DNA of 64,000 bases from Fibrobacter sp. UWB13 (lineage in GTDB: Bacteria; Fibrobacterota; Fibrobacteria; Fibrobacterales; Fibrobacteraceae). Positions 49,940 to 53,386 of this stretch are shown here, piece by piece. Below the pieces are notes generated by a model that saw only the letters and a program-made list of their open reading frames with translations, made no database searches and was not told the DNA's origin. How positions within the stretch are numbered: position 1 is the first letter of the stretch; every line of letters starts with the position of its first letter. Made by a program: the position numbers and the translations under genes. Location: assembly GCF_900177805.1 (NCBI RefSeq), contig NZ_FXAX01000001.1:992001-1056000 (forward strand). Direction: 5' to 3'.

Positions 49940-50149
49940 TTATTTGATGGCGAGCATCGCAGCAATCACATCATCCGGAATGTTCTTCGAACGGAGATAC
50001 TCGACCCGTTTGGAATCACGTTCATCGATTTTTTCGCGTTCTTGCTCAACGCCTAACTTTTTCCCACGACGGAGTGCGGCACGTTCTGCGGCACGCAGGC
50101 GATCCCCTGCGGTCTTGATGCCTAAAGCCTGTCCGATACTAATTTGCAT
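49940..50149 (-). CDS. Internal in-frame product of the Rpn gene (candidate intragenic antitoxin)
   Basis: GGAGGAG (50156-50162), 6-nt spacer, ATG 50149-50147, in the frame of the full protein. It would give 69 residues, MQISIGQALGIK through MLAIK: a helical, charged domain without the catalytic residues. Known for RpnA: a small C-terminal product from an internal start inhibits the nuclease. Here it is seen only as a start signal. Confidence 0.5.
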   Translation of the reverse strand: MQISIGQALGIKTAGDRLRAAERAALRRGKKLGVEQEREKIDERDSKRVEYLRSKNIPDDVIAAMLAIK

Positions 50150-50857
50150 ACGCAACTCCTCCACGACATCCTTGTCGAGGTACTCTCCTAAATATACTAC
50201 AATTTTTTCGGCAAGAGTAGCCCTCGCGCTGTTCTCCATCTTCGAGAGCATTTTTACCAACTCGCCACAAATCTTTTTCAAACCGTCGGCATCAAAAGCG
50301 TGTTTCATCACCAAAGCACCCACAGCAGCCTCTATATTTTGCTCCGCAAAGCAGGCCTTGTCAGGGACATCTGCGAGGTTAACGAAGACACATTCAAAAG
50401 GCAACTTCTTGCCACTAAGCTTTCCCCCATGTTTCTTGCGGAACTCCGCCAGCGGATCCCAATTCTTTTGCCCGTTATAGATGACAATAGCCTTCGTATG
50501 AAGCCACCGAAAATCCGTCGCGTTCTTGTTAACCATGACCTGGAAGGTGTATTCGTAAATCTGCGAAAGCACATCCCTTTCACGGTAGGATTTGTGTTCG
50601 AGCAGAATCCCCACAAAAAACTCGGAGCCGTCCTTGTATTTTGCAGTGAAAGCAAGGTCTGAATAGCCCCATTCCTTGACGGAACTAAAGCTGCCAGGAA
50701 TCAACTCAAGGCTCTGCATGTCCACAACGGAAAGCATCTGACGGAGTTCAGCATTCTTAAGCTGAGCAAGTCGCAATAGTGCCCGAGTATTTTCAGGAAC
50801 AGCATAGACATATCGGAAAAACGGATCGTGTTTGCGATTTGTTTTCTTCTTTTTCAT
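49940..50857 (-). CDS. Rpn-family nuclease (Transposase_31/YhgA-like)
   Basis: 305 residues. HDPFFRYVYAVPENTRALLRL is the family N-terminus; SDLAF...FVGILLEHKSYRE gives D...ExK of the PD-(D/E)XK fold. Escherichia coli RpnA-type proteins are DNA endonucleases that promote recombination and can act in phage defence, held in check by a short C-terminal protein made from the same gene. The full-length ATG has only a weak ribosome site. The C-terminal 69 residues have their own strong start at 50149 and a tail (DERDSKRVEYLRSKNIPDD) shared with the nuclease at 52424. Confidence 0.85.
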   Translation of the reverse strand: MKKKKTNRKHDPFFRYVYAVPENTRALLRLAQLKNAELRQMLSVVDMQSLELIPGSFSSVKEWGYSDLAFTAKYKDGSEFFVGILLEHKSYRERDVLSQIYEYTFQVMVNKNATDFRWLHTKAIVIYNGQKNWDPLAEFRKKHGGKLSGKKLPFECVFVNLADVPDKACFAEQNIEAAVGALVMKHAFDADGLKKICGELVKMLSKMENSARATLAEKIVVYLGEYLDKDVVEELRMQISIGQALGIKTAGDRLRAAERAALRRGKKLGVEQEREKIDERDSKRVEYLRSKNIPDDVIAAMLAIK

Positions 50858-51088
50858 TTAAACATGTTTATCTCTCGGGAACGCCCCCGTAAAGCAGTAG
50901 GATTTCCCCATACCACTATATTTAACACGCGATTTTCCCGGAAAAGTTTCGGTTAAATTTTGGATACATTGCAATTAGTCCCAAAAACAACTAATAGCGG
51001 TTTGTCAAAGAAATAAAACATTTATCCGTCTCATTTTATATTAAATTTTCATGAGTACGTAACAGAGACTTTGTTTTCAAGGTTAAGG

Positions 51089-52159
51089 ATGGATTCAGCG
51101 GGACCGCACAAGTGTTTAGAGCGTTCAAGGAACTTGGACATTATCAAGGGCATCGGGATTGTCCTTGTGGTTCTTGGCCATTGCGAATGCGCGGCGAAGC
51201 ATTTTATTTACTTGTTCCACATGCCGATTTTCTTCATGGCTTCGGGCCTTGTCCTGAATTCGGGCTACAGCGATAGCTTCCCCAAGTTTCTGGATTTGCT
51301 CCGGAAGAGGTTCAAGAGCCTGTGGTTGCCGTGTTTCTTTTTCAACACGCTGTTCCTTTTGCTCTCCGGGGCGTTCATCAGGTACGAGATCTACCCCATC
51401 GATGTCAAGACGGCTCCGACTCTTGCAAACGGGATTCTTTTCAACGCGCTTTTGTACATGAAGGGCGGGCCGCTGGCGGGTGCCTGCTGGTTCCTCGGGA
51501 CGTTGTTCGAGGTCACGATTCTTTACGCGTTTGTGGATTATTTGCTCAAGCGTCTGCACGTGCGGTTCCGGGAATTTGTGAACTTTGCGCTGGGGCTCGC
51601 GCTGTTTTTGGTTTCGTTCTACCTGATTCAGCGAGGCATTCGAATTCATAGCATTTTCGAGCACATCGCGGGGGCTTATGTGATGTTTGCCATCGGGGTT
51701 CTGCTGAAAAAATTGCCGTTTAACGCCATTTCGCCACGGATTTGGATGTCGGTTTTCGTGGTGACGCTTGCGATTTTGCTCGTCTGTAACCAGTTCGGGT
51801 CAGTAGAGCTGAGCATGGGGGTCTACACCTCCCCCGCGTTCTATTTGTTATGCGCGGTCGCGGGCTGGTTCCTGATTTACTCCGTTTCGGTCGGGGTGTC
51901 GCATTTTTCGCATGCTTCGAGCTTTTTCAGTTATCTGGGGCAGAATACGGTCTGCATCATTGGGCTGCACTTTTTGACGTTCAAGATTGTGACGTACATC
52001 CAGGTTAGCCTATACAATTTGCCGCACGAGACTCTGAGCGTGTTCCCGGTTTTGGCGGATAGGCCGTTCTGGTGGTTGGCGTACACGGTCGTCGGTGTTG
52101 GGGCGCCGCTGCTAATCAATCAGGGGTACAAAAATGTCAAGAGAAAAGTATTCTCTTGA
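51089..52159 (+). CDS. Acyltransferase family 3 membrane protein
   Basis: 356 residues from ATG 51089; a TTG 18 nt earlier is in frame. RNLDIIKGIGIVLVVLGHCECA has the catalytic His of the family, FHMPIFFMASGLVL follows, then FKSLWLPCFFFN, with about ten helices. It is separate from the polysaccharide operons and GC-rich, so it may serve another cell-surface glycan. A 231-bp upstream gap has no gene; no convincing promoter seen. Confidence 0.85.
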   Translation: MDSAGPHKCLERSRNLDIIKGIGIVLVVLGHCECAAKHFIYLFHMPIFFMASGLVLNSGYSDSFPKFLDLLRKRFKSLWLPCFFFNTLFLLLSGAFIRYEIYPIDVKTAPTLANGILFNALLYMKGGPLAGACWFLGTLFEVTILYAFVDYLLKRLHVRFREFVNFALGLALFLVSFYLIQRGIRIHSIFEHIAGAYVMFAIGVLLKKLPFNAISPRIWMSVFVVTLAILLVCNQFGSVELSMGVYTSPAFYLLCAVAGWFLIYSVSVGVSHFSHASSFFSYLGQNTVCIIGLHFLTFKIVTYIQVSLYNLPHETLSVFPVLADRPFWWLAYTVVGVGAPLLINQGYKNVKRKVFS

Positions 52160-52165
52160 CCCCAC

Positions 52166-52214
52166 AATGATGGTCAAACATGTTAGCCTCCAATGCTTTC
52201 AAAAGTTCTGGTTT
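52166..52214. repeat. 49-bp direct repeat of part of the nuclease gene at 52424
   Basis: Matches 52610-52658 with one mismatch by eye. It corresponds to codons around the internal start (LKALEANMFDHH on the minus strand), so it is a fragment of a second nuclease gene or a partial duplication. Confidence 0.85.
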
Positions 52215-52258
52215 CTTTTTTTCGATTAAGAATATATCTATTCTATATGAACGGCGCA

Positions 52259-52372
52259 AGTGATTGGAGTTTTCAAAGCAAAAGCAGAACGGGTAGAGAT
52301 TCCCTACCAAACGCTTTTAAACTCAATCGTGAAGCGTTACACCGAGAGTATGCTAGACAAAAAAACGATTTA
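52259..52372 (+). pseudogene. C-terminal remnant of a BrnA/CopG-like antitoxin
   Basis: 38 codons to TAA: GVFKAKAERVEIPYQTLLNSI matches the F-K-x-x-A-x-x-x-G-I-P-Y-Q-T-L-I-N segment of BrnA/CopG-type ribbon-helix-helix antitoxins. An in-frame TGA precedes it and no N-terminus or toxin is present. Toxin-antitoxin debris, followed by an intact terminator. Confidence 0.6.
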
Positions 52373-52379
52373 AATTTTC

Positions 52380-52408
52380 AGCTCCTGCAAATTTGCAGGA
52401 GCATTTTT
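52380..52408 (+). terminator. Intrinsic terminator of the antitoxin remnant
   Basis: Perfect 22-bp palindrome GCTCCTGCAAA/TTTGCAGGAGC, then six T. It may also end transcription of the convergent nuclease gene. Confidence 0.75.
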
Positions 52409-52423
52409 TAGGAAGATTTTTAG

Positions 52424-52624
52424 CTACTTCAGGGCAAAACCCTCAGAGATAATATCTTCCGGAACGCCCTTAGAACGGAAATACTCAGCCCTCTTGGAAT
52501 CACGAGCATCACTTTTTTCGCGTTCCTGCTGGGCACCCTTTTCCATACCACTCGCAAGGCCCCGAGCTTCGCCCTTAAGGAAGGCTTCGGCTTCAAGAGC
52601 TTCGTATTCATGATGGTCAAACAT
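52424..52624 (-). CDS. Internal in-frame product of the second nuclease gene (candidate intragenic antitoxin)
   Basis: GGAGG (52630-52634), 5-nt spacer, ATG 52624-52622, same frame. 66 residues from MFDHHEYEALEAEAFLKG to GFALK. It is equivalent in position, size and tail to the internal product at 49940-50149. Not proven; start signal only. Confidence 0.5.
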   Translation of the reverse strand: MFDHHEYEALEAEAFLKGEARGLASGMEKGAQQEREKSDARDSKRAEYFRSKGVPEDIISEGFALK

Positions 52625-53386
52625 GTTAGCCTCCAATGCTTTCAAAAGTTCAGGTTTCATGCGGCTTACGCGCAAACGTTCACGAGCATTCACGAAAATT
52701 GGGTCTTCCGTTTCCGGAACCTGAAGCGGACCTCGAGAAATAAGACGGAGCCAAAAATCCTCGCGGGTTTTCACGCCCTTACGCAAACGCAAAAAATTGG
52801 GCAAGTCCACTACAATATACCTATTTTTCCGAGAAATAGGAAGTGCGTTCCCCGACTTGACCTCATATTCGCTATAAGTGGTCCAAACGTCCTTATAGAT
52901 GTCCTTTGATTGAAGAATCGAACTATTGCAGAGCCAAATAGATACTGTTTCTGGAAGCTCATAATAGCGATACTTACGATCCTCTTCCGACAGTCCTTGA
53001 AAATACGGCGAACGATTATATTCATACTTGCCACGCAGCGTGAGGTACGAATTATAGAGTTGCATGCGGTCAAAGAAGAACGAGTGCACCTTATTCTGCA
53101 TTTCAATATTAAGATACCGATTGTCCTTGGTATGTACCCAGACATCAAGACGCGCAGGGTCATTTTCCGGCATAAAGATGTCAATGGGCTTCTCGAATTC
53201 GTATTCGAGATCAACAATTTCATGGTCATGATCCAGCTGAAGTAAGCTATTAAGGACATCACGAATAGTATCCTTGTCATCCATTAAAATACGGAAGATT
53301 GCCGCGTATTTAGGCAGCAAGAATTCCTCGCCTTGTTCGTTCCTGACTATGTATTTTTTAGTCGATTGATTAGCGTTATTAGACAT
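52424..53386 (-). CDS. Rpn-like PD-(D/E)XK nuclease-family transposase (PDDEXK_2 type)
   Basis: 320 residues from ATG 53386. FLLPKYAAIFRILMDD is the family start; ARLDVWVHTKDNRYLNIEMQNK is the catalytic core with D...ExQ, and FFFDRMQLYNSYLT follows. This is a different Pfam branch from the gene at 49940, yet its last 30 residues (REKSDARDSKRAEYFRSKGVPEDII) are nearly the same as the tail there. The full-length start has a modest site (GGGAA), whereas an internal ATG at 52624 has GGAGG at 5 nt. Confidence 0.85.
   Translation of the reverse strand: MSNNANQSTKKYIVRNEQGEEFLLPKYAAIFRILMDDKDTIRDVLNSLLQLDHDHEIVDLEYEFEKPIDIFMPENDPARLDVWVHTKDNRYLNIEMQNKVHSFFFDRMQLYNSYLTLRGKYEYNRSPYFQGLSEEDRKYRYYELPETVSIWLCNSSILQSKDIYKDVWTTYSEYEVKSGNALPISRKNRYIVVDLPNFLRLRKGVKTREDFWLRLISRGPLQVPETEDPIFVNARERLRVSRMKPELLKALEANMFDHHEYEALEAEAFLKGEARGLASGMEKGAQQEREKSDARDSKRAEYFRSKGVPEDIISEGFALK

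Follow-up and report, generated by a model that had tools for sequence, protein, structure and literature searches.

The 64,000-nucleotide (nt) stretch of the Fibrobacter sp. UWB13 genome analyzed here (contig NZ_FXAX01000001.1, positions 992,001 to 1,056,000), referred to as the window, contains two nuclease genes, A and B, each with a Shine-Dalgarno (SD) sequence and an in-frame ATG inside its coding sequence. We consider them, with high confidence, to be toxin-antitoxin units of the gene-within-gene Rpn type, whose antitoxin tails have been exchanged between nuclease families. We use the names RpnL and RpnS, for the full-length nuclease and the C-terminal small protein, as in the Escherichia coli Rpn systems RpnA-E and RpnP2 (COG5464; Zhong et al. 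2023, PMC10327210). Counted from the first letter of the window, the genes and their internal signals are as follows.

49940..50857, minus strand: gene A, full-length RpnL-like nuclease of 305 amino acids (aa), Transposase_31/YhgA-like (PF04754).
50156..50162, minus strand: internal SD GGAGGAG of gene A, 6 nt ahead of the in-frame ATG at 50149.
49940..50149, minus strand: predicted RpnS of gene A, 69 aa plus stop.
52424..53386, minus strand: gene B, full-length RpnL-like nuclease of 320 aa, PDDEXK_2 (PF12784).
52630..52634, minus strand: internal SD GGAGG of gene B, 5 nt ahead of the in-frame ATG at 52624.
52424..52624, minus strand: predicted RpnS of gene B, 66 aa plus stop.

As had been proposed, A and B belong to different nuclease families: A matches Transposase_31 (1.7e-18) and B matches PDDEXK_2 (2.6e-13), both above the curated Pfam cut-offs, and by these matches each carries a PD-(D/E)XK nuclease domain of the Rpn family. 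The nuclease parts of the two genes gave no blastp match to each other. Gene A matched the NCBIfam RpnA model weakly (5.7e-05) and scored 22.7 bits against the E. coli RpnA equivalog NF007361, below its curated cut-off of 583 bits, and is therefore a relative of RpnA and no ortholog. Gene B scored 24.6 bits against TIGR01784, under the curated cut-off of 52.1 bits, and is therefore filed under PF12784. Both nuclease branches are labeled Rpn family in NCBI naming. In PDB sequence searches, neither gene A nor its RpnS had a relative, the PADLOC models made no Rpn call, and an Rfam search gave nothing useful. Beyond A and B, the genome has ∼14 PDDEXK_2 and two Transposase_31 matches, some of them partial.

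Our analysis recovered the same coordinates, strand, SD spacing, product lengths (69 and 66 aa) and common D-x-R-D-S-K-R-x-E-Y-x-R-S-K-x-x-P-x-D motif as the original prediction. It also agrees that the internal signals are stronger than those of the full-length starts, with anti-SD duplex energies (in kcal/mol throughout) of -9.3 in A and -9.3 in B, versus a longest SD-like match at the full-length starts of none in A and 4 nt in B. To compare homologues, we aligned by family 190 usable genes from ∼80 genomes of the same genus, partly drafts in which individual loci need checking, and regarded an SD as strong at a duplex energy of <= -6 kcal/mol. A single internal methionine column is prominent per family, with ATG in 79/84 genes of family A and 81/106 of family B. 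A strong SD precedes this ATG in 99% (family A) and 83% (family B) of the genes that have it, compared to a background of 4.5% and 2.8%, respectively, for the other in-frame ATGs in the nuclease parts of the same genes. Other common internal methionine columns show weaker SD signals, and 26 of the 30 genes without ATG in the conserved column have an SD-preceded start nearby. The internal SD-ATG, on whose conservation the original prediction depended, is thus conserved among homologues. When the codons were redrawn synonymously, the mean duplex energy was about -3.7 at random versus -8.4 observed in family A (41 non-redundant contexts; Wilcoxon P ~1e-12), and about -3.4 versus -7.1 in family B (42 contexts; Wilcoxon P 2e-13), although these P values are not literal, since the sequences are related and not fully independent. 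The residues under the SD vary widely (LEEL, LRRL, QRRL, LKEL, VKEM, EVKN, IRQAN, YRSEV), showing that the RNA motif rather than the protein is conserved, and this diversity has no ready alternative explanation; in the few genes in which the ATG has moved (L128, L135), the SD shifts along with it. As a positive control, the same script was run on four of the five E. coli rpn genes with experimentally demonstrated internal starts (Zhong et al. 2023, PMC10327210), giving -8.5 for rpnA, -8.7 for rpnB, -10.8 for rpnC and -8.7 for rpnE. The internal SD/ATG of A and B is beyond chance.

A search for hexamers in excess of codon expectation, in the stretch ahead of the internal start, pointed to a candidate internal promoter.

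50190..50196, minus strand: TATATTT box of gene A, probable -10 element, 47 nt ahead of the internal ATG.
52814..52819, minus strand: TATATT box of gene B, 195 nt ahead of the internal ATG, with AAAATAG before the box.

In family A, TATATT/ATATTT occurs in 77/79 genes versus 6.6 expected from synonymous codons, and lies at exactly -47 in 75/79. The B-type genes contain TATATT in 32/33 cases versus 9 expected from synonymous codons, and 30/33 share AAAATAGGTATATT, its TATATT at -195, while a further PDDEXK_2 group has AAAATA at -209 and GTATAT at -202 (29/33 genes). In keeping with a -10 box, the 120-nt regions ahead of genes in the window contain TATATT at 3.7 times the density of coding sequence. 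The box of gene A is probably the -10 element of an internal promoter, and from these patterns we infer promoter activity for the TATATT boxes in general. Six family A genes (L050, L056, L061, L181, L182, L357) have an insertion of ∼65 nt between the box and the internal SD, the ends of which resemble an inverted repeat (AAAACCTTC...GAAGGTTTTT); the nuclease is thrown out of frame by this insertion, which leaves the RpnS start unharmed and is possibly a small mobile repeat.

Four-residue steps past the start are a hallmark of RpnS (PMC10327210), and the tail helix in our genes varies by such repeats. In the B group, every predicted RpnS (17/17; 54-86 aa) has a length of 2 mod 4, in the A group every one (7/7; 69-89 aa) has a length of 1 mod 4, and another tail group is likewise 1 mod 4 throughout (8/8); in two further tail groups, the lengths are mixed mod 4. 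Repeat insertions are visible in alignments of close genes. An AlphaFold2 model of gene B with distant relatives (mean predicted local distance difference test score, 79.6) predicts a long helix over residues 245-305 and a short helix. RpnS has been reported from C. difficile, and tail repeats from Bacteroides fragilis, Bacillus cereus and Leptospira (PMC10327210). The Aureibacter plasmid pAT2 (L219) carries three tandem PDDEXK_2 genes whose nuclease parts are nearly identical and which differ mainly in their tail repeats.

What these comparisons establish is conserved internal translation signals, not inhibition. The internal start could be real and the short protein a subunit or assembly partner needed for nuclease activity, like Cas11d for Cas10d, a case cited in PMC10327210. 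We regard this as improbable, given that the E. coli RpnS proteins inhibit their own RpnL in vivo and in vitro (PMC10327210) and that intact rpnS copies remain where the nuclease has been lost, which would not be favored for an accessory subunit. The latter became apparent from a tail-type profile, which gave many short-frame matches: in most of the ∼29 loci read, the nuclease is deleted, frameshifted or absent, yet the SD, the ATG and the open RpnS frame are kept. Examples, often with TATATT, are L314, where most of the nuclease is deleted and the box retained, L315, whose remnant begins at the box, L351, L355 and L019. We dropped the idea that protection by RpnS causes nuclease-broken loci to outnumber the reverse, in view of the tail-based sampling and of the larger mutational target that the nuclease offers. 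By homology and shared anatomy, the most likely function of A and B is a RpnL nuclease held by the RpnS from the same gene, and we infer that both short proteins are produced and serve as antitoxins.

The C-terminal ends of the two genes resemble each other at the DNA level.

49970..50046, minus strand: distal part of the gene A tail, exchangeable and forming the core of the DNA match to B (80.5% identity over 77 nt).
52454..52530, minus strand: distal part of the gene B tail, exchangeable and forming the core of the DNA match to A (80.5% identity over 77 nt).

With 59% identity over 37 residues, the match is real, but calling the tails near-identical, as was done at first, is slightly strong. 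Clustering the last 34 residues yielded 34 tail types, 8 of which are common to both nuclease families and include 88/186 genes. Such tails might be alike through common descent of one conserved C-terminal domain in both families, without any exchange; a short helical tail does occur in both, and distant relatives have the generic motif G-x-x-x-E-x-I-x-x-x-T-G-L-S. This account is very unlikely, and for the named tail types it is already refuted. The tail type differs in 15% of nuclease pairs at 90-100% identity, in 34% at 80-90% and in 56% at 70-80%, and parsimony needs 23 changes for 14 types in 75 genes of family A and 30 changes for 12 types in 90 genes of family B. Between close genes, identity is kept through the internal start and drops abruptly 45-75 nt later, in the repeat zone. 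Across families, the tail DNA of L053 is 84% identical to that of L084 over 131 nt and 80% identical to that of L141 over 218 nt, the latter match extending 86 nt past the stop codon, while the nuclease parts of genes that share tails across families gave no or insignificant blastp matches. Finally, replacement is directly visible at one locus (L143/L095/L011, see below). Even less credible is that codon and residue constraint in the linker between nuclease and tail produced the SD/ATG as a side effect, since, although residues of the L-E-E-L type can give GGAGGA by chance and the P value of a single gene is only about 0.1, the pooled synonymous-codon null is rejected (P ~1e-12), the signal follows the shifted ATG, and the same RNA motif lies over many residue contexts.

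Judged from these alignments, the module that moves is the distal ∼35 residues, sometimes with the 3' flank, and the internal start, the SD and the first ∼15-25 residues stay with each nuclease lineage. The swappable antitoxin module of the original prediction is thus borne out as DNA-level exchange between both families, but only the part after the four-residue repeats is affected.

DISPLACEMENT is caught mid-event at one syntenic locus, represented by L143, L095 and L011, whose alignment extends from ahead of the gene past the internal start and which are followed by the same gene. L143 has one (old) tail. L095 has a different tail, followed by a spacer of ∼100 nt, a second copy of the internal-start region and then the L143-type tail as a free-standing 62-aa open reading frame (ORF). 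L011, which belongs to the same genome as the window yet lies beyond it, carries the new tail together with the spacer, without the orphan. In addition, L091 has the same new tail as L095, ahead of an orphan whose tail is of a third type, the one found in L094. A downstream copy of a gene's own start region was found in 7/156 genes scanned. Six of these copies are full-length orphans, three of them with a tail type unlike that of the upstream gene, and the seventh is truncated and lies behind gene B.

52167..52214, minus strand: copy of the SD/internal-start region of gene B, 48 base pairs (bp) with 1 mismatch, 210 nt past the gene B stop, with unrelated sequence after it.

The ATG of this element opens a 14-aa frame and has a separate TATATT 55 nt ahead of it (52231-52236); the element is probably the remnant of a decayed orphan rpnS. 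Full-length orphan rpnS genes of another tail type lie directly behind an intact rpn gene in L095 (2571-3351, reverse complement), L091 and L064.

Outside the genus, internal starts also occur on the PDDEXK_2 branch, whose inclusion had at first been taken as a novelty. The signal is present in most PDDEXK_2 genes of the genus itself, and PDDEXK_2 genes found on Priestia, Paenibacillus and Metabacillus plasmids carry strong starts of this kind (-9 to -13), which would yield 84-99 aa, with PF12784 confirmed for two Priestia genes and the Paenibacillus gene; a Leptospira PDDEXK_2 gene has one of -11.7 (102 aa). The starts in Bacillota and Leptospira (L306, L310, L312, L222) lie earlier in the domain than that of gene B, a difference that points to independent origins or to relocation. 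The Clostridiaceae PDDEXK_2 gene tested has no strong internal start. We rejected the idea that PDDEXK_2 genes in general have the internal start, as most relatives in Bacteroidota and elsewhere are without a strong SD there (SD sequences are little used in Bacteroidota). In Leptospira, a Transposase_31 gene (L224) also has an internal start (54 aa), and on the same L. interrogans plasmid record (2037-2258) a 73-aa ORF overlaps the end of the rpn gene, its second half tail-like, as a separate rpnS-like gene.

Taken as Rpn-type units, A and B would work as follows. The full-length product RpnL would be a PD-(D/E)XK nuclease, and the second, internal start, probably with its own internal promoter, would yield the C-terminal 66-69 residues as a separate RpnS, which may pair with the same helix in RpnL and thereby keep the nuclease inactive. 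The long helix past the internal start would lengthen or shorten by four-residue repeats, and the distal ∼35 residues would recombine in or near this repeat zone, between loci as well as between nuclease families. Because toxin and antitoxin share the exchanged sequence, one exchange would re-key both together, consistent with the finding for RpnC that repeat numbers must match (PMC10327210), and the displaced old antitoxin may persist downstream as an orphan gene. More tentatively, and somewhat short of an even chance, Rpn genes may diversify by cassettes, where a new tail with its spacer is inserted by recombination in the conserved internal-start region, the specificity of toxin and antitoxin changes in one step, also across unrelated nuclease families, and the old antitoxin stays behind as a working orphan, protecting against the earlier toxin type.

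Several observations weigh against these units as described. A Foldseek search of the gene B model against PDB gave nothing significant, and for this reason we make no structural claim for gene B. The set of nuclease-broken loci was found via the tail, so that intact tails are over-represented and the solo loci show existence, not retention frequency. Most PDDEXK_2 relatives outside the genus, Bacillota and Leptospira have no strong SD start at the junction, and the design is therefore not universal in PDDEXK_2. Lastly, the TATATT box of family B is distant (195-202 nt) from the internal start.

The gene-within-gene RpnL/RpnS unit is a known design (Zhong et al. 2023, PMC10327210), and internal starts on the PDDEXK_2 branch are not new either, as they are also found in Priestia, Paenibacillus and Leptospira. 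Not described in Zhong et al. 2023 (PMC10327210) are the exchange of distal tails between families, orphans that have been displaced and differ in their tail, and the TATATT box at a fixed distance. How a toxin-antitoxin pair changes its specificity without killing the host is an open question. With both partners read from one DNA stretch, a single recombination would change both, and the old antitoxin, kept as an orphan copy, could provide cover during the switch. Genomes of the genus carry up to 25 PDDEXK_2 paralogues each, in addition to Transposase_31 ones, so that the genus lends itself naturally to testing, and the locus with three states (old tail; new tail with orphan; new tail) puts the re-keying idea within direct experimental reach.

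Compared to known systems, A and B are closest in anatomy to the E. coli Rpn systems. They share a PD-(D/E)XK nuclease whose internal ribosome-binding site and start give a C-terminal small protein, a start at the corresponding point with respect to the nuclease (RpnA, K-E-S-L-M; here, E-L-R-M), an SD of equal strength, repeats of four residues past the start and separate rpnS copies. Transcription start sites have been reported inside all E. coli rpn genes (PMC10327210), for which the parallel here is the TATATT box alone. They depart from the E. coli systems in that B belongs to the PDDEXK_2 branch, that two nuclease families exchange distal tails, and that orphan rpnS genes can differ in tail from the upstream gene, whereas the E. 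coli ones cluster with theirs. A second comparison is with the PDDEXK_2/TIGR01784 nucleases (“Rpn family recombination-promoting nuclease/putative transposase”), of which gene B passes PF12784 but falls below TIGR01784; members in Bacillota and Leptospira also have a strong internal SD start, placed earlier in the domain in Bacillota, and many other members have none. Contact-dependent inhibition and Rhs loci, at which tail exchange leaves orphan immunity modules, resemble the genes described here in their conserved front, exchangeable C-terminal module and displaced old modules downstream. They differ in that here the exchanged module is a segment shared by toxin and antitoxin, the orphan is the antitoxin alone, and the toxin is intracellular, so that the likeness is one of process, not of membership.

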